A stretch of DNA of 13,594 nucleotides from a bacterium (GTDB taxonomy: Bacteria; JAJRZV01), in contig JAJRZV010000057.1 of the NCBI GenBank assembly GCA_024275095.1, forward strand, positions 1 through 13,594. The letters run 5' to 3'. Both the position numbers and the translations under genes were made by a program. How positions within the stretch are numbered: the stretch's first letter is position 1; each line of letters starts with the position of its first letter. Shown one piece after another: positions 308 through 8,236 of the stretch. The notes beneath the pieces were generated by a model, which was not told the DNA's origin, made no database searches, and saw nothing but the letters and a program-made list of their open reading frames with translations.

Positions 308-2779
308 ATGCATCAAACAAGCAATAAATTCACCTTTATATTGTTCATCTTTATTATATCTATTGCATTTGTCACCAGAATAAAATACATGTCACCCATA
401 CCCACTGGACACGATGAAATCTATTATGCAAAAATGGCGGAAAAGCCGGGCAATTTATTCGGCTACCGACTGCAATATGAGATAAATAAAACAAAAATTA
501 GACCAATATATCCTCCTGGATACCCGTTCTTTATCTATTTAGTATCAAAAATATCCCCTGATGAAAAGATTGCTCCCACTCTTACATCTTGTATTTTTGG
601 AGCACTATCCTGTGGTATTGTATTTTTAATTTTAAATTTAATTACAGGCACTTACTTTGCTGTGTTAGGAGCAATTTTAATCAGTTTCAATCCATTTTTT
701 ATAGATCTAAGTTGTAGAGCATACTCGGAAACAACAATGCTACTTTTTATTTCAACCTCTCTCCTTCTAACTTTATTGGCAATTCACAAAAATAAATCTT
801 TGTTTTTTCATGCATCTTTCATCATGGCAATCATCGCAGTCGGTATACACGCAGGAGAAGTGTTATATCTAATGTCGTTATTTATATTCGGGTTATCTCA
901 CAAAAGATTAAGAAAGATTTTAATCATTTATGCCATGCTCTCTGCACCTTTTGTAATATTTTTCTTGTTTACCAAAACAAACTACTGGTGGCAGGGAGGG
1001 CTCAATCTAACAAATTTAACCAAAGCACTTTTACAGTTTATTGAGTCTGTAATAATCATACCCTCAAAAATATTTGCTAAAAACGGGATTCTTATGTATT
1101 CACAACATCCGGGAGTCGTAGCTTACCTGCTATTTCTCTTATCCGGCCAGGCAAAAATTGGAGAAACAGTAACCTTTCCCATGGCCTTTTTCCCATTAGT
1201 TTTACCAACAGCCGTTATCGGAGGATATGTATTCTGTATAAAAAACAAACAGAACTTAAATACATTATCACGTGAATTTATCAAGATTATATTTACAATC
1301 TTTGTAGTATATCTGCTCGCGCGAGCTTCCCAATATTACAGAACAGCAAGATATATTTTTCCGGTGGTTGTATTCGGGTTGGCTGTAATTCCTGTATTGC
1401 TAAAAATGGCCAACGTAAAAAAACTATTATCCACAACTCTCATCTTTTACATAACACTTATACCTTTATACATATCTAAAGATTTTTTGTCTCTTCCAAA
1501 AGTTCACGCCCAACTTCTTATGAAAGAAATGGCAATTCTGGACAGAATTTTGGATAAGGACGTTCTTATAATAACATCTCGACCACAGACAGTTGAAATG
1601 TACCTTAAGCGGAAGTATTTATATATAAACTGGTATAAAATATTTGAGAAGAAATATGATGAAAACTTAAAAAAATTTAAAAAGGTATACTTGTTAGAAG
1701 ATGCGAATGACATAAAAATTAAAGCAAAACAAAGGCTGTATTATCCACTCAAAAGTAAGTATAAAATTTTACCCCTTGAAAAGATAGGACAATTTAAACT
1801 CAGTATATTAGCAATCGACAAATCATCTATTGAATTCTCTATCGGAAAAACAAACGTAAAAGTTCCTTTAGCAATAAAGGTTGCATCAGGAGGCTGGATT
1901 GCCGGCAACAGATGCGAAATTTCTGTCAATGCCAGTGATAATCTTGTCGTGGAGATAAAAAGAGGAATAAACCTGGTCGCAATTGAACCTGACGGTAAAA
2001 TTATATACAGGGGGAATTTCGATACCTGGATTGATAAAAAAGAAGGATTAAAATTTGCAGAATTTGTAAACAGCTTAACCGATGGGATAGTAGTGGCCCT
2101 TTGTGTGGCCGATGAAGCATCAAAAAATTTGACAGAACGTGGACAAGAGGCATTATACAAACTCGGAGGACAGTTACCCTTAATAAAAGCTTTTAGATAC
2201 AGTTACGCTCTTATAGGAATAAAAGGTGCTGAAAAGGGTACTGCACTTGAAGCAATGTCTTTGTTCAAACAGGTTGTTCTGAAAAACTACCTGCCCCAGA
2301 AATTTGCACCGGAGAGAAAAACAATCACGCACGTGGAAGTCGCATCCGGCGGCTGGAAAGCGGGAAATTTCTGTTATATTACCATCAACTACGGCTTCAA
2401 CCTCGCTTTTGGAAAGCGCGGCGTAAACATCGTTGCATTTGATACCAGGAACGGAAAAATATTTGCAAGGCGTGCTTTCGACACGTGGCTGGACAAAAAA
2501 GAAGGTCTTGCACTTGCAGATTTCGTCAACTCTCTCACAAAGGGCACAGGCGTGGCCATATGCGTTCAGGACGAAGCCTCGAGAAACCTTACGGAAAAAG
2601 GTCAGGAAGCACTTTACTCACTCGGGGCAACGTTCCCTCTCATCAAATCGTTCCAGTACAGCTACGCACTCATTGGAATTAAGGGAGCAGGCAAGGGCAC
2701 TGCATTTGAATGCTGGAGCAAATCACAGAAAGTTCTCCTCACAAGTGAAGGTGAATGCAAGCCCTTCAATCTCAAATAG
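308..2779 (+). CDS. PMT/ArnT-like membrane glycosyltransferase with two C-terminal ILEI/FAM3-like domains
   Basis: Predicted 823-residue integral membrane glycosyltransferase of the GT-C fold, which would move a sugar from a polyprenyl-phosphate donor to an acceptor outside the cytoplasm. Residues 8-25 form the first membrane segment. It is followed by the acidic loop motif GHDEIYYAKMA (Asp36, Glu37) and RPIYPPGYP (65-73), both typical of PMT/ArnT/GT39-GT83 enzymes. Many hydrophobic segments follow to about residue 390. A soluble stretch (about 390-515) then leads to two ILEI/FAM3-like domains, near 519-665 and 675-823, about two thirds identical to each other. The ATG at 308 is preceded by AGGGG nine bases upstream. 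The 3' end overlaps the convergent minus-strand gene by 8 bp. GC rises along the gene (about 32%, 40%, 49%), which suggests transfer or mosaic origin. The membrane enzyme family is fairly sure; acceptor and donor are unknown. The ILEI call rests on recalled similarity to human FAM3C, not a search. Confidence 0.85.
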   Translation: MHQTSNKFTFILFIFIISIAFVTRIKYMSPIPTGHDEIYYAKMAEKPGNLFGYRLQYEINKTKIRPIYPPGYPFFIYLVSKISPDEKIAPTLTSCIFGALSCGIVFLILNLITGTYFAVLGAILISFNPFFIDLSCRAYSETTMLLFISTSLLLTLLAIHKNKSLFFHASFIMAIIAVGIHAGEVLYLMSLFIFGLSHKRLRKILIIYAMLSAPFVIFFLFTKTNYWWQGGLNLTNLTKALLQFIESVIIIPSKIFAKNGILMYSQHPGVVAYLLFLLSGQAKIGETVTFPMAFFPLVLPTAVIGGYVFCIKNKQNLNTLSREFIKIIFTIFVVYLLARASQYYRTARYIFPVVVFGLAVIPVLLKMANVKKLLSTTLIFYITLIPLYISKDFLSLPKVHAQLLMKEMAILDRILDKDVLIITSRPQTVEMYLKRKYLYINWYKIFEKKYDENLKKFKKVYLLEDANDIKIKAKQRLYYPLKSKYKILPLEKIGQFKLSILAIDKSSIEFSIGKTNVKVPLAIKVASGGWIAGNRCEISVNASDNLVVEIKRGINLVAIEPDGKIIYRGNFDTWIDKKEGLKFAEFVNSLTDGIVVALCVADEASKNLTERGQEALYKLGGQLPLIKAFRYSYALIGIKGAEKGTALEAMSLFKQVVLKNYLPQKFAPERKTITHVEVASGGWKAGNFCYITINYGFNLAFGKRGVNIVAFDTRNGKIFARRAFDTWLDKKEGLALADFVNSLTKGTGVAICVQDEASRNLTEKGQEALYSLGATFPLIKSFQYSYALIGIKGAGKGTAFECWSKSQKVLLTSEGECKPFNLK
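1862..2302 (+). repeat. First ILEI/FAM3-like domain (tandem copy 1)
   Basis: Residues about 519-665 of the membrane glycosyltransferase. The order of motifs follows FAM3/ILEI proteins: VASGGW at 525-530, a cysteine after GNR (Cys536), KRGINLVAI, FDTW, a helix with EFVNSLTDG, CVADEASKNL, then FRYSYALIGIKG. In human FAM3C the corresponding landmarks are ASGAAN, PKIC, GRGINVAL, FDMW, FLKAIQDGT, YDDGATKL and FRDNWVFCGGKG. The tail VVLKNYLPQK aligns with the FAM3C tail that holds the last conserved cysteine, but here the position appears to be Tyr. GC over 1861-2280 is about 40% by hand count. Confidence 0.75.
2330..2776 (+). repeat. Second ILEI/FAM3-like domain (tandem copy 2)
   Basis: Residues about 675-823, the C-terminal domain. 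It repeats copy 1 from VASGGW (678-683) through FDTW, DKKEGL, FVNSLT, DEASRNLTE and YSYALIGIKGA to GTAFE (ending at 801). By eye 84 of about 128 aligned residues are identical. Unlike copy 1 it keeps a C-terminal cysteine (Cys817, in EGEC), matching the EGC near the end of FAM3C, besides Cys689 and Cys752. At DNA level the copies differ mostly at third positions, and this copy is GC-richer (about 49% over 2341-2760), so it is not a fresh duplication. Confidence 0.75.
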
Positions 2780-5504
2780 CAGCCGTTCCGTTTCGATACT
2801 TATGGGGTTTCCATTCAATATTCCACTTTCTTTCATAGCGCCTTTTGTTCTCTTCAAAAATCCGGTTGTATTCTTCATCACTTAGCTTTTTAAAAGTCGC
2901 TCCACCAAAGTGATGAATAAATACATCTTCTGCGCATATCAGCCTGTATCCAGCTTTCTTGACACGGAGGCAAAAATCATCATCCTCGAAAAAACCAATG
3001 GAAAACTGTTCATCGAGACATCCCACCTTTTCGATAACGTGTTTTTTTACAGCAACGCAGTAAAAGGCAAGAACGTCAATGGGAAACCACTTGCCCTTAT
3101 TTGCTTTTGTGTACCTCTCGGCGAACTCTTCCATCTCACTAAGGTTTGTATAATCCACGTCAATTTTTGCCTCATTGCCAATGCTGTTTGTTACAGGGCC
3201 GACCATACCGAGATCCTCAACGAGATCAAAATACCTGATCAGGCCTCCCAGCCATCCTTTCGTTACTACGGTATCATTATTGAGAAACACGATGAAGTCA
3301 CCTGTAGATGCCTTGATACCCTGATTATTTGCGCCGGCGAATCCTTTATTCTCATTGTTGAATATAACTTTTACATTGCCGTTTTGCTTTGAAAGTTCAT
3401 ACAGATATTCACGCGTCCCGTCGTGCGATGCGTTATCAACAACGATAACTTCAAAATTCGGATATGCGGTCTTCTCGAAAAGACTGTTAAGGCAAAGTCT
3501 CGTGTAATTCAAGTTATTATGAGTGACCACAATGATACTTACCTTGGGGTACATCTGCCTTATCTTTTCCTGCAGGCGACTGAAGCGCTTGTCCCAGTTG
3601 TTTCTGTAAGCAGTGGTGATTCTTTCTTTCCTGAAACGACGAGGATCTTCAGAAATCGCTTTCTTAACATTCTGTAGAAACTCCTCGTGGGTTTCAGAAA
3701 CGTACGCAATACGCCTTAACGTCCTGAGCTCCGGTAAAGCTGTTGTTACAACAGGTTTCCCAGCACTTATGTACTCATAAAACTTGACGGGATCGGTAGA
3801 CTCTATCAGCTTGGTTACCTTAAACGGGATTAAACACACATCAAACCAGTAGAGGTATCGAGGCAACTCTGAATAAGGCTTTTCACCGAGCAAATAAACA
3901 TTTTTATACTTTTTGAGTTTTTCAACGTCTGAGCCAAAAGTGTGTCCTATCAATACAAAGCTGGCCTCTTTATGAGCCTTAACAACTTTCTCAAGCAACT
4001 CGGTATCAAACCATTCCGATATTGCTCCGTAGTATCCGATTATGGGTTTTTTGAAATCTTTGAGTAGCTCATTCTGGGGAGGATTAAAAAAATGATGAAA
4101 ATCTACTCCATTCTTAACAAGATATGTTTCTTTTTTATGCTCTTTGATTTTGTAGAAAAGTTTCAATGATGAAGTAATACACATATCTGACAACTCAACG
4201 AGTAATTTTTCATCATTCAGTACAATCTCACCAAGATCCTTGAATTCGCTGAACTCATCGAGACAATCGTAAACCAACTTAAAATGTCTTCTACTCCTTT
4301 TGAGTTCTTCAGCGAATCTTCTCCAGTTTGGAAGTTGTACAATCATTACACATTCTTTCACGCCACAATCATCCACAAGCTTTTCAAGTGCAAGCATCAT
4401 CTTTGAGTGGTCATTTTCATCAGCTGTAGAGTAAATATCGTATATAAGAAAATCCTTCTCAGCAGGTAGTTTCACCTCGTAAACATTATCAGCAACTTTC
4501 CTTATCTGATAATCTCCCCCTTTCTTCACATTTACGCTGAGGTAGAAAACCCTGTGGCCATTACGTGCAAACCGGGTGGCAAAATGCTGTGGCCTCTGAA
4601 ACCTGAAATCCCAATCTATAATCGAAAAAAAGATTACATCATACTTGTACACTCCCCTCCGGCTTTCACGTACGGCTTCCTCTACCGGAATAGGATTCTG
4701 ATGTACACTTCTTTTTCTTGGATACTTTACGCGCGACCATATGCGTGTAACAACACCTCTCAGCCCCTCATCGCGCCAGACCCTGAAAACCCGATGCACA
4801 AAAGAAAGTACGACACTTCGGGTGGCCATCCTCCAGTACCACGTCGCCACTTTCCACCAGGTAGTTGCTTTGATATTTTCAAGCTCTTGAAGTAAAGATT
4901 TTGTGTACGACTCCAGGCTCTCCACTCTCTGAGCAAGCACGTTGTTTCTTTCCTGGAGCAAATTAATCTGTCCCTGAAGCCGGGCGTTTTTACTGATTTC
5001 CTGATGCAATAGTTTTTCCTCATGATCCAGCTTTCGTTCAACCCTCTCTCTGACTTCTCTCTCTTGTTCAATCTGCTTTTCGAGAACCTGTTTCTCAGCC
5101 AGGAGTCTTTCGCGCTCTGACCTGAGTGCCCTGGTCTCTTTGTCCAGTGAATCCGTAAGATAGGACAAACGAACTTTCTCAAGGCTCACCCATTGCATGT
5201 GTGCATATACACATAAAAACTGCTTCCCTCCCCAAAAACGCTCCTCCATTTTTGCACAATCGATTTCCCTGAAAAAGACGAGATAAAAATCACCCACCCT
5301 TAGAGGAAAGTTGTTGTAGTCAAAAGTGAAAAAGTGCTCAAAATCCCGTTCTGTCTCCCTGAAAGGAGCAAGAATCACCACGTACTTCCTGGCTTTGTCC
5401 ATCATTTTTTTCAGAAACTGAAAGGGGCGGTCAAAATGCTCTATCGTGTTCGAGCAATAGATGACATCAAACTTTTCTTCAATAGCGTCTATGTCGCTTG
5501 TCAC
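2772..5504 (-). CDS. Methyltransferase C-terminal part, coiled coil, GT4-like and GT2 glycosyltransferase (3' fragment of an interrupted gene)
   Basis: The open frame has 910 codons from a GTG at 5504, but it continues in frame, past one TAA, from the frame that starts at 5804, so this is the larger part of a gene of about 1010 codons. Residues 1-105 are the second half of a SAM-dependent methyltransferase (FDVIYCSNTIEHF). Residues about 116-212 are a charged coiled coil rich in Glu/Arg/Lys, followed by a Trp-rich basic linker. About 288-650 is a GT4-like glycosyltransferase (DWDFRFQRPQHFA near the start, FYEYISAGKPVVTT in the nucleotide-sugar-binding half). About 653-905 is a GT2 glycosyltransferase (VSIIVVTHNN, VIVVDNASHDGT, LNNDT, FFEDDDFCLRVKKAGY). 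It should act in the cytoplasm on surface polysaccharide. The GTG has only a weak AAGAG upstream, so the GT part would need re-initiation. The 3' end overlaps the convergent membrane glycosyltransferase gene. Confidence 0.85.
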   Translation of the reverse strand: MTSDIDAIEEKFDVIYCSNTIEHFDRPFQFLKKMMDKARKYVVILAPFRETERDFEHFFTFDYNNFPLRVGDFYLVFFREIDCAKMEERFWGGKQFLCVYAHMQWVSLEKVRLSYLTDSLDKETRALRSERERLLAEKQVLEKQIEQEREVRERVERKLDHEEKLLHQEISKNARLQGQINLLQERNNVLAQRVESLESYTKSLLQELENIKATTWWKVATWYWRMATRSVVLSFVHRVFRVWRDEGLRGVVTRIWSRVKYPRKRSVHQNPIPVEEAVRESRRGVYKYDVIFFSIIDWDFRFQRPQHFATRFARNGHRVFYLSVNVKKGGDYQIRKVADNVYEVKLPAEKDFLIYDIYSTADENDHSKMMLALEKLVDDCGVKECVMIVQLPNWRRFAEELKRSRRHFKLVYDCLDEFSEFKDLGEIVLNDEKLLVELSDMCITSSLKLFYKIKEHKKETYLVKNGVDFHHFFNPPQNELLKDFKKPIIGYYGAISEWFDTELLEKVVKAHKEASFVLIGHTFGSDVEKLKKYKNVYLLGEKPYSELPRYLYWFDVCLIPFKVTKLIESTDPVKFYEYISAGKPVVTTALPELRTLRRIAYVSETHEEFLQNVKKAISEDPRRFRKERITTAYRNNWDKRFSRLQEKIRQMYPKVSIIVVTHNNLNYTRLCLNSLFEKTAYPNFEVIVVDNASHDGTREYLYELSKQNGNVKVIFNNENKGFAGANNQGIKASTGDFIVFLNNDTVVTKGWLGGLIRYFDLVEDLGMVGPVTNSIGNEAKIDVDYTNLSEMEEFAERYTKANKGKWFPIDVLAFYCVAVKKHVIEKVGCLDEQFSIGFFEDDDFCLRVKKAGYRLICAEDVFIHHFGGATFKKLSDEEYNRIFEENKRRYERKWNIEWKPHKYRNGTAAI

Positions 5505-5552
5505 AAATTCTCTTAAGGGATAATATTGTCTTGCTTTTTTGATCGCCTCTTC

Positions 5553-5804
5553 TTAAATATCCACCCCGACAATTTTTGAATCTGGAAAACGACGGGCCAG
5601 CATTTCAACAGCATCTCCTTCTGCGCAGCCCAGGTCCATAATACTGAGATGGTTTCCTTCAATATCGCTGATAATCCATTCAGGAAGATGTTCAAGCGTA
5701 ATTTGGCAGAAAAATCTGGTCTGCTCCCTGCCCCCTTTTTTCTCCCAATCGGTACGGAATCGAATATCCCAGTAAAGACGACTGTTGATGTCCACATCCT
5801 TCAT
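5553..5804 (-). CDS. N-terminal fragment of the same methyltransferase-glycosyltransferase, cut by an in-frame TAA
   Basis: This is an 83-residue fragment with the start of a class I SAM-dependent methyltransferase. It has the family-typical N terminus (NSRLYWDIRFRTDWEKKGG) and the SAM-binding motif I, DLGCAEGD at 57-64, ending IVGVDI. The next codon is TAA (5553-5555), after which the same frame reads EEAIKKARQYYPLREFV and joins the downstream 910-codon frame without any shift. Family members usually read GVDIS here, so a TCA to TAA change is the simplest origin. Alone it lacks half the methyltransferase fold and should be inactive. The ATG at 5804 has no strong ribosome-binding site and sits just 12 bases past a good -10 box. 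Confidence 0.7.
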   Translation of the reverse strand: MKDVDINSRLYWDIRFRTDWEKKGGREQTRFFCQITLEHLPEWIISDIEGNHLSIMDLGCAEGDAVEMLARRFPDSKIVGVDI

Positions 5805-5879: not shown

Positions 5880-5897
5880 AAAAAAGCTGATTTCAGC
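5880..5897 (-). terminator. Short candidate intrinsic terminator after the MEMO-AMMECR1 gene
   Basis: On the minus strand the self-complementary GCTGAAATCAGC (4-5 bp stem) is followed directly by six T. The stem contains the TGA stop of the upstream gene. It is short for a strong terminator, but the position between two transcription units fits. Confidence 0.4.
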
Positions 5898-7488
5898 GTT
5901 TTGCCTGAAATTCCTTTTCCGAAAACACCGTGGCAGTGAACCGGTAAAGTTTTACACCTGGTTTTTTCCACGTATCCGGCGGAAGTCCTGCTTTTCGGCA
6001 TATTTGACGCAGGTATTCTTGTAAATTCCAGCCCCATTCAACAGGCACCTGGGGCAGAAGCACGCCCCGGCGGCGGCCGTACTCAATAATCAAACCGTCA
6101 CGACCAATCTTTATCTCCTTGAGGGGATTCTTCACAGGTACTGGAGGAGAGAGCACAGAAATCTCTATTTCAATATCCTCTAACTCATCCACACGCACTG
6201 GGTAAAACCGCGGGTCCTTCGAACAGGAATTAACCGTCATGTGTTGAACAGCGAGGTAAAGGGGTTCTACCGCAGAGAGGCCTCCAATACATCCCCTGAG
6301 AATCCCTCTCTTTTTCAACGTCACAAAAACGGCTCCCTTCTTCTTCAAAATTTCTCTTTGAGGTTTTACCTCCGGAATGCGTCTCTCTTTCACATAAGTT
6401 TCCAGGGTAAGGCGGGCAATTCGGAGTAACTTCTTTTTATCTTCACGCGTAAGATCATCACCTTTCACCCATTCACCCTTCTCCTTTTGAGTAACGGTTT
6501 CCTTCCTCTCTACACGGGTCCAATCATAAGAAAGCTTTATCCGCCCTGATTTAAGAAATGCCACCGAACCGTAACCTACCACACGCTCCATACCCCCTGC
6601 TGTGTCACCAGAGTTCTTGTATTCCAGCACCACCGGTTTCAGATCCAATTTCGATGCTATTATAAGAGCGGTAAGTACAGGGGACACCCCGCACATTTCG
6701 TAAGTGCGTTCGCGAACCTTTTTGTAGATACTTCTCCAGTCTTCTGTTGTAAGCGCCTTGAGAAGCGCAATATCCATCTCTCTGGCCACTTCATACGGGT
6801 GATAGTGGGAGAGGTCAGAAGATGCAACGAATACATAACGACCGTTACCTTTCTTCAATATTTGCGCAAGAACCTCCGCCGCCCCTTCAATTACATCTGT
6901 ACGAAATCCTCCAAACACGAGAGGCAGCACCTTCGCTTCTGGAAGAAACTTTTGAACAAAAGGGATCTCAACTTCCGCGGCATGTTCCCTCTCGAAAGCT
7001 CTTATTTCCTGCATAAAAGGTAAATGTTTCAGCAACTGCCGGCCCAGCTTTTTATCTATGGGCACTTCCCCGAGAGGGGTTCTGTACGCGTCTTTCATCA
7101 GCACAGATACGCCGTTGAAAGGGTATCTGTGAGACGGTGCCATGATGATCACAGTGAGGGGATTGGTCTGCTTCAACACAAAAAATGAATGGGCCGCCAC
7201 CTGGCCTGAGTAGATATAACCTGCATGGGGAGCAATCACTCCCAGCACCTCACCTTCTACCGAAACACCTGTAACGTTTTTCATAAATTCATTCAGCATT
7301 TCATCGAGTTCCGCAGGACCAGCAGGGTAAAAAGCCCCGGCGACCACAGGATTGAAAACTTCTTTTGGTTTGGATTTACTGCACTGGGTAAAGAACAGAG
7401 CACTTACGAAAGCGACACAAAATCCTGCGACCCGAACCAGAACCCCTCTTTTTTTAATCAAGAATTTCAAGGGTGTATTTCTTGTCAT
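5893..7488 (-). CDS. MEMO-AMMECR1 fusion protein (AmmeMemoRadiSam system proteins B and A) with N-terminal export-like segment
   Basis: This 531-residue protein joins the two non-radical-SAM partners of the AmmeMemoRadiSam system, whose reaction is not established. The MEMO domain (about 45-315) is related to metal-dependent class III extradiol dioxygenases. It keeps the expected ligands and motifs: PHAGY (His88), PSHRYPF (His120), EHAAEVEIPF (His169), SSDLSHYHPY (225-232) and MCGVSP (Cys266). The AMMECR1 domain (about 345-525) has the signature LRGCIGG (397-403), DPRFYPV and IEISVLSP. Residues 1-19 are basic, followed by a hydrophobic stretch ending FFTQC (Cys36) and then a Lys-rich segment. 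This looks like a signal anchor or an atypical lipobox, with Gln before Cys being unusual. The start overlaps khpA by 35 bases and has no clear ribosome-binding site, so expression may depend on khpA translation. The radical SAM partner is not in this window. Confidence 0.9.
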   Translation of the reverse strand: MTRNTPLKFLIKKRGVLVRVAGFCVAFVSALFFTQCSKSKPKEVFNPVVAGAFYPAGPAELDEMLNEFMKNVTGVSVEGEVLGVIAPHAGYIYSGQVAAHSFFVLKQTNPLTVIIMAPSHRYPFNGVSVLMKDAYRTPLGEVPIDKKLGRQLLKHLPFMQEIRAFEREHAAEVEIPFVQKFLPEAKVLPLVFGGFRTDVIEGAAEVLAQILKKGNGRYVFVASSDLSHYHPYEVAREMDIALLKALTTEDWRSIYKKVRERTYEMCGVSPVLTALIIASKLDLKPVVLEYKNSGDTAGGMERVVGYGSVAFLKSGRIKLSYDWTRVERKETVTQKEKGEWVKGDDLTREDKKKLLRIARLTLETYVKERRIPEVKPQREILKKKGAVFVTLKKRGILRGCIGGLSAVEPLYLAVQHMTVNSCSKDPRFYPVRVDELEDIEIEISVLSPPVPVKNPLKEIKIGRDGLIIEYGRRRGVLLPQVPVEWGWNLQEYLRQICRKAGLPPDTWKKPGVKLYRFTATVFSEKEFQAKR

Positions 7489-7798: not shown

Positions 7799-8236
7799 TC
7801 AAAAAGGAACGTCGTCTTCCTCGTCGAATCCATCTTCTGGAATATCGCTTACAAACGGGGGGGCTTCCTCCGGCTCAGGCAATTCGTCGGAAGCACCGTT
7901 ACCGTTTCTCGATCCGAGCATCTGCATGTTGCGAGCGACCACCTCGGTAATCCACCGGGTGTTCCCGTCACGCCCTACAAAACTTCGAGTGACCAGCTCA
8001 CCCTCGATATATACCTGTTTGCCTTTTGTGAGATATTGCCCGCAAATCTCACCAAGCTTGCTCCAGGCCACAATCCGGTGCCACATAGTAATACGCTCTT
8101 TCTCGCCATTTTTGTTGACAATAACTTTATTCGTAGCCAAGGGAAACGTAACCACTACCGTACCGTTAGAGGTATAGCGCACTTCCGGATCTCTCCCCAG
8201 GTTTCCTACCAGGATCACCTTGTTTACCGAGGCCAT
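7799..8236 (-). CDS. ssb: Single-stranded DNA-binding protein
   Basis: This 145-residue SSB coats single-stranded DNA during replication, recombination and repair and recruits partner proteins. The OB-fold occupies about 1-108 (start MASVNKVILVGNLGRDPE, core FPLATNK, WHRIVAW, KGKQVYIEGELVTR). It is followed by a short acidic Pro/Glu linker and the conserved C-terminal tip DDVPF that binds SSB partners. The frame is open six codons further upstream (ATG at 8254). I chose 8236 because GGAGGGTGAC lies directly before it and because family members begin at this Met. A well-formed promoter precedes it, so it is probably transcribed apart from dnaJ. Confidence 0.95.
   Translation of the reverse strand: MASVNKVILVGNLGRDPEVRYTSNGTVVVTFPLATNKVIVNKNGEKERITMWHRIVAWSKLGEICGQYLTKGKQVYIEGELVTRSFVGRDGNTRWITEVVARNMQMLGSRNGNGASDELPEPEEAPPFVSDIPEDGFDEEDDVPF

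Follow-up and report, generated by a model that had tools for sequence, protein, structure and literature searches.

A long gene on the minus strand of the contig described here, predicted to encode a methyltransferase joined to glycosyltransferases, is split by a single in-frame TAA (Table 1). The question it raises is whether the organism carries a broken gene, a gene that is read through or switched, or a whole gene that has been broken only in the assembly. The window, i.e. the whole stretch of DNA analysed, is a complete contig (C19) of 13,594 bases from a genome of 2.45 Mb in 136 contigs, for which 97 % completeness and 0.9 % contamination have been estimated. The assembly is fragmented and has MAG-like features, and the genomes used for comparison are related to this one no closer than at domain level.

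The interrupted frame and its predicted product

On the minus strand, positions 5564 to 5544 read GTG GAT ATT TAA GAA GAG GCG. The frame that begins at 5804 runs for 83 codons to ...KIVGVDI, meets the TAA and then continues unshifted as EEAIKKARQYYPLREF in translation, residues EEAIKKARQYY standing directly after the stop in the same frame. Past the TAA the frame is open for 926 codons, or 910 when counted from the first GTG at 5504, and no second lesion was seen in the whole frame from 5804 to 2772. A previous reading of this DNA, made from the sequence only, had described an in-frame TAA splitting a methyltransferase-glycosyltransferase gene that is otherwise intact over more than 900 codons. 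Sequence and translation confirmed both points, and the position and the reading were correct.

Table 1 Features of the interrupted gene (positions in the window)
Feature	Position	Strand	Basis
In-frame TAA inside the methyltransferase domain	5553..5555	-	Sequence and gap-free homologue alignment
Upstream piece of 83 codons, with the N-terminal part of a predicted class I SAM-dependent methyltransferase, motif I included (DLGCAEGD ... GVDI)	5556..5804	-	Pfam Methyltransf_31/25
Downstream piece in the same frame, 926 codons and stop: remaining methyltransferase, coiled coil, GT4-like and GT2 domains	2772..5552	-	Translation and profiles
Earliest candidate restart codon, GTG, 16 codons past the TAA	5502..5504	-	
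Methyltransferase core on both sides of the TAA, from motif I to roughly where the core ceases to align	5367..5651	-	Alignments
Probable coiled-coil linker, rich in Glu, Lys and Leu	4869..5156	-	Judged by eye from the translation
Predicted GT4-type glycosyltransferase domain (Glyco_trans_1_4; TuaH-like)	3720..4040	-	Profile matches
Predicted GT2-type glycosyltransferase domain (Glycos_transf_2, E 3.6e-33)	3030..3539	-	Pfam

Judged from its alignments and codon usage, the interrupted stretch is one ancestral domain. The signature of class I methyltransferases is present: motif I (xDxGCxxG) reads DLGCAEGD, the acidic end of strand 2 reads GVDI, and a Rossmann core follows. The 83-residue piece matches the Methyltransf_31/25 profiles from the profile start as far as the stop (on its own it scores 22.5 in Pfam, under the cut-off of 27). 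Past the stop, later portions of related methyltransferase profiles are matched. When the stop was read as X, the PDB methyltransferases 5dm2, 5dm1 and 4kwc matched query residues 46-136 with E values of 2e-7 to 3e-7, the X being placed opposite one residue with no gap at the site. Curated methyltransferase families also aligned with this protein, the core alignment extending to residue 136-147.

Gap-free alignment over the TAA was likewise obtained with 25 homologous loci, in which the residue facing the stop is Ser in 13 and Asp, Val, Ala, Asn, Ile or Thr in the rest. The suggestion that relatives commonly have GVDIS at this point was thus a fair one, although Ser is the most frequent residue and not the sole one. 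The codon-usage score of the frame was 0.19 per codon before the TAA, 0.09 over the 16 codons between the TAA and the GTG and 0.14 after them, with 0.17 per codon as the mean of long ORFs; the other two frames before the GTG scored negative. The gap-free homologues, and a coding signal that keeps to one frame before and after the TAA, thus point to a single ancestral domain and not to two adjacent genes.

If intact, the gene would encode one protein of about 1010 residues, with a methyltransferase followed by a coiled coil, a GT4-like domain and a GT2 domain. Based on these families, the product probably has a role in cell-surface polysaccharide synthesis. In the genomes searched, the matches cover single domains and none is a full-length homologue with an identical architecture; a scan of the contig against other genomes gave distant GT2 matches only.

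Two further multidomain proteins are predicted in the window. At 308-2779 on the plus strand lies a membrane glycosyltransferase of the PMT_2 type that carries at its C-terminus two ILEI domains (Pfam E 2.4e-40, two stretches), which are FAM3-like, of the "interleukin-like EMT inducer" type, and are here found in a bacterium. At 5893-7488 on the minus strand, Memo (AmmeMemoSam B) and AMMECR1 (AmmeMemoSam A) are fused in a protein of 531 residues, the N-terminus of which is possibly signal- or lipoprotein-like.

Other interrupted genes in the assembly

Sixty stretches of the genome, 790,795 bases altogether, were scanned by codon usage for stops with the coding signal running through them. Most of the 43 candidate stops obtained were ordinary neighbouring genes; the RsfS/RlmH and AroE candidates, for example, were plain adjacent genes and were left uncounted. 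Besides the TAA of the window, stops within genes were found in nadB (TAA, contig C16), proB (TAG, contig C110), an accC-like biotin carboxylase gene (TAG), a gene for a TolB-like propeller (TAA) and a gene for a GH15-type amylase (TAG). Pfam or NCBIfam profiles cross the stop in nadB (L-aspartate oxidase, 710 bits), proB (394 bits) and the accC-like gene (584 bits). The last of these is a poor marker of essentiality, because two intact paralogues of it exist.

An independent homology scan was made by tblastn with the proteins of two comparison genomes (G010 and G012) and of smaller loci, and covered 215,451 aligned bases. Six clear in-frame stops were obtained, namely those of nadB, proB and the accC-like gene together with TAA codons in accD, maeB and an M50 protease gene. 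The scan also showed an IS256-type transposase gene with a TGA, a frameshift in argS and a decayed carbamoyltransferase gene. Sites at L035, L037, L094 and L111, and antisense matches at L087, were set aside, being spurious frames or boundaries between genes. The carbamoyltransferase gene (L084 15035-15706, plus strand, contig C36) has several stops and a frameshift, and looks like either a truly decayed gene or an error-rich stretch.

Some of the broken genes are present in a single copy. The sole accD of the genome (contig C125) has a TAA inside, and a frameshift near 7911 divides the sole argS (L106 7126-8762, minus strand, contig C132) in two. In prfB, the sole gene for RF2, an in-frame TAA lies in the N-terminal helices, apart from the normal programmed-frameshift region. 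This region itself, apparently of the classical +1 type, is seen in the same gene (L195 1480-1750, contig C21), with GGIFDV reading after a short upstream frame. A change was also found outside protein-coding sequence: in tRNA-Leu(UAG) (L203 42-126, minus strand, contig C105), one of the 33 tRNAs read, the invariant T-loop C56 is replaced by A. No such change at C56 was found in genuine control tRNAs, and it is consistent with a base error.

When G010 and G012 were treated by the same tblastn procedure, no clear in-frame stop emerged from the 159,470 bases aligned; two sites (L120 and L181) resemble gene boundaries, and one G012 alignment looks like a frameshift. For the genome studied here the rate was 28 in-frame stops per Mb aligned (95 % CI 10-61), i.e. 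about one per 12,000 aligned codons, and at this rate the probability of finding none in the controls would be 0.012. Among 59 other genomes, a stop is almost never found within full-length matches to accC and proB, and neither TAA nor TAG was found in full-length matches to accD.

The stops occurred as TAA:TAG:TGA in the ratio 7:3:1, which fits random substitutions under this codon usage (expected 40:37:23 %, p 0.26). From codon usage, 3.8 % of random substitutions would yield a stop, and the stop rate therefore corresponds by calculation to a substitution error rate of about 7e-4 per base. A base-damage signature was considered from the residues of homologues but not retained, as the original codons are not knowable and random substitution fits the stop mix.

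Weighing the explanations of the stop

We regard a base error of the assembly, and not biology, as the most likely origin of the TAA, with a probability of about 0.8. The frame is continuous over the TAA, and comparable single-base breaks are present in many unrelated housekeeping genes. Single-copy genes of the type of prfB, accD and argS are normally essential, and therefore the breaks in the sole copies of these three cannot all be real. A living cell could hardly bear all of the lesions, which makes base errors in the assembly the best explanation for them, and we infer that the TAA of the window is itself one of these errors. It would then be a substitution error in the consensus, i.e. 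a wrong base call, in an otherwise whole gene. At 28 stops per Mb, the chance that a gene of 3 kb acquires a stop by error is about 8 % (3-18 %), which is well over a plausible rate of lone nonsense mutations in intact genes, the latter rate being our own estimate. Some points speak against assembly error: modern assemblies would be expected to have fewer substitution errors than the implied 7e-4 or so per base, the other genes of the window (hrcA, grpE, dnaK, dnaJ, ssb and Memo-AMMECR1) are open, and the glycosyltransferase gene is non-essential, so that a true nonsense mutation is allowed.

A recent, genuine nonsense mutation is the main rival to assembly error, and we consider it unlikely. 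By such a mutation the methyltransferase would be lost, and the glycosyltransferase part would either be lost by polarity or be restarted at the GTG at 5504 or at a later ATG. The gene is of the surface-polysaccharide type, the loss of which is tolerated, the remaining frame is intact, and a candidate restart codon stands 16 codons on, after TTAAGAGAATTT; translation from it would give a protein of 910 amino acids without motif I. However, lone nonsense mutations are rare in otherwise perfect long genes, whereas some 28 such stops per Mb are found here, and comparable stops have also hit single-copy genes that cells need. Furthermore, the codons between the TAA and the GTG are still coding-like and aligned with homologues, so no decay is visible.

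It is far less probable that UAA and UAG are ambiguous throughout the genome of an isolated lineage, being mostly stops but sometimes sense codons, even in housekeeping genes. In-frame TAA and TAG, and almost no TGA, break conserved genes here and not in the controls, and cases of conserved in-frame stops under purifying selection are known from bacterial genes (PMC7918605). However, the low count of TGA is not significant (p 0.26, as above), and the in-frame stops are scarce. TAA ends 125 and TAG 22 of the 344 long ORFs. Ordinary anticodons were found in all 33 tRNAs read of the 43 in the genome, none of them a stop anticodon. Of the release factors, RF1 is intact (506 bits, with no stop); the sole gene for RF2 is interrupted by a TAA in the assembled sequence. 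Ambiguous reading of UAA and UAG would also leave the frameshift in argS and the change of an invariant tRNA base unaccounted for. A fully recoded genetic code, under which a codon is common in genes and rare as a terminator, found no support, given the normal use of terminators, the presence of RF1 and the lack of a suppressor among the 33 tRNAs read. A dedicated, structured read-through element is not supported either, as the RNA around the TAA folded no better than shuffled sequences (z 0.35 and 0.97) and showed no unusual structure, RF1 is present and the tRNAs read include none for a stop codon.

A phase-variable or programmed switch at the site, whether by a slipped-strand repeat, an invertible element or a structured read-through signal, can practically be set aside: phase variation often affects genes for surface glycans, but neither a tandem repeat tract nor an invertible element was found at the TAA, the RNA is no more structured than shuffled sequences, and the usual mode of such switching is a change in length and not a substitution to a stop.

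The sequence-only reading had left four options side by side, i.e. recent mutation, assembly or read error, phase variation and read-through. The breaks found throughout the genome favour the second of these, while phase variation and read-through found no support, in view of the missing repeat or invertible element and the missing structure. With assembly error as the preferred explanation, the organism most likely has an uninterrupted gene, and as biology the stop is probably of no consequence. It does, however, give a warning for curation, as the assembly appears to carry base errors at a rate of about 7e-4, enough to split a few percent of its genes. In this genome, single stops, "pseudogenes", odd residues and short ORFs should not be taken as biology without reads.

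Comparison with known systems

The deposited genome of Mycobacterium smegmatis offers a parallel: conserved genes are interrupted there by a single in-frame stop or frameshift, and 28 of 73 resequenced interrupted coding sequences were sequencing errors, about 4 per Mb (PMC1852416). The case described here is of the same kind, but with about 28 in-frame stops per Mb of aligned coding sequence it has the higher rate; it also comes from a fragmented assembly with MAG-like features and is known from the assembled sequence alone.

Frequent read-through has been argued for in a study of in-frame stops in prokaryotes, in which the stop was required in orthologues of at least two species, excluding sequencing errors (PMC7918605). 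As in those genes, the stop lies here inside an otherwise conserved reading frame. In contrast to them, no other genome is known to share this TAA, and lesions of the frameshift type are present too. The case thus falls outside the two-species requirement.

With respect to its predicted product, the gene resembles the multidomain surface-polysaccharide proteins that combine methyltransferase, coiled-coil and glycosyltransferase parts. As in these, a class I methyltransferase, a GT4-like domain and a GT2 domain would be joined in one polypeptide, and the TuaH-like and EpsD/MftF-like profile matches within the gene point to the same class of proteins.
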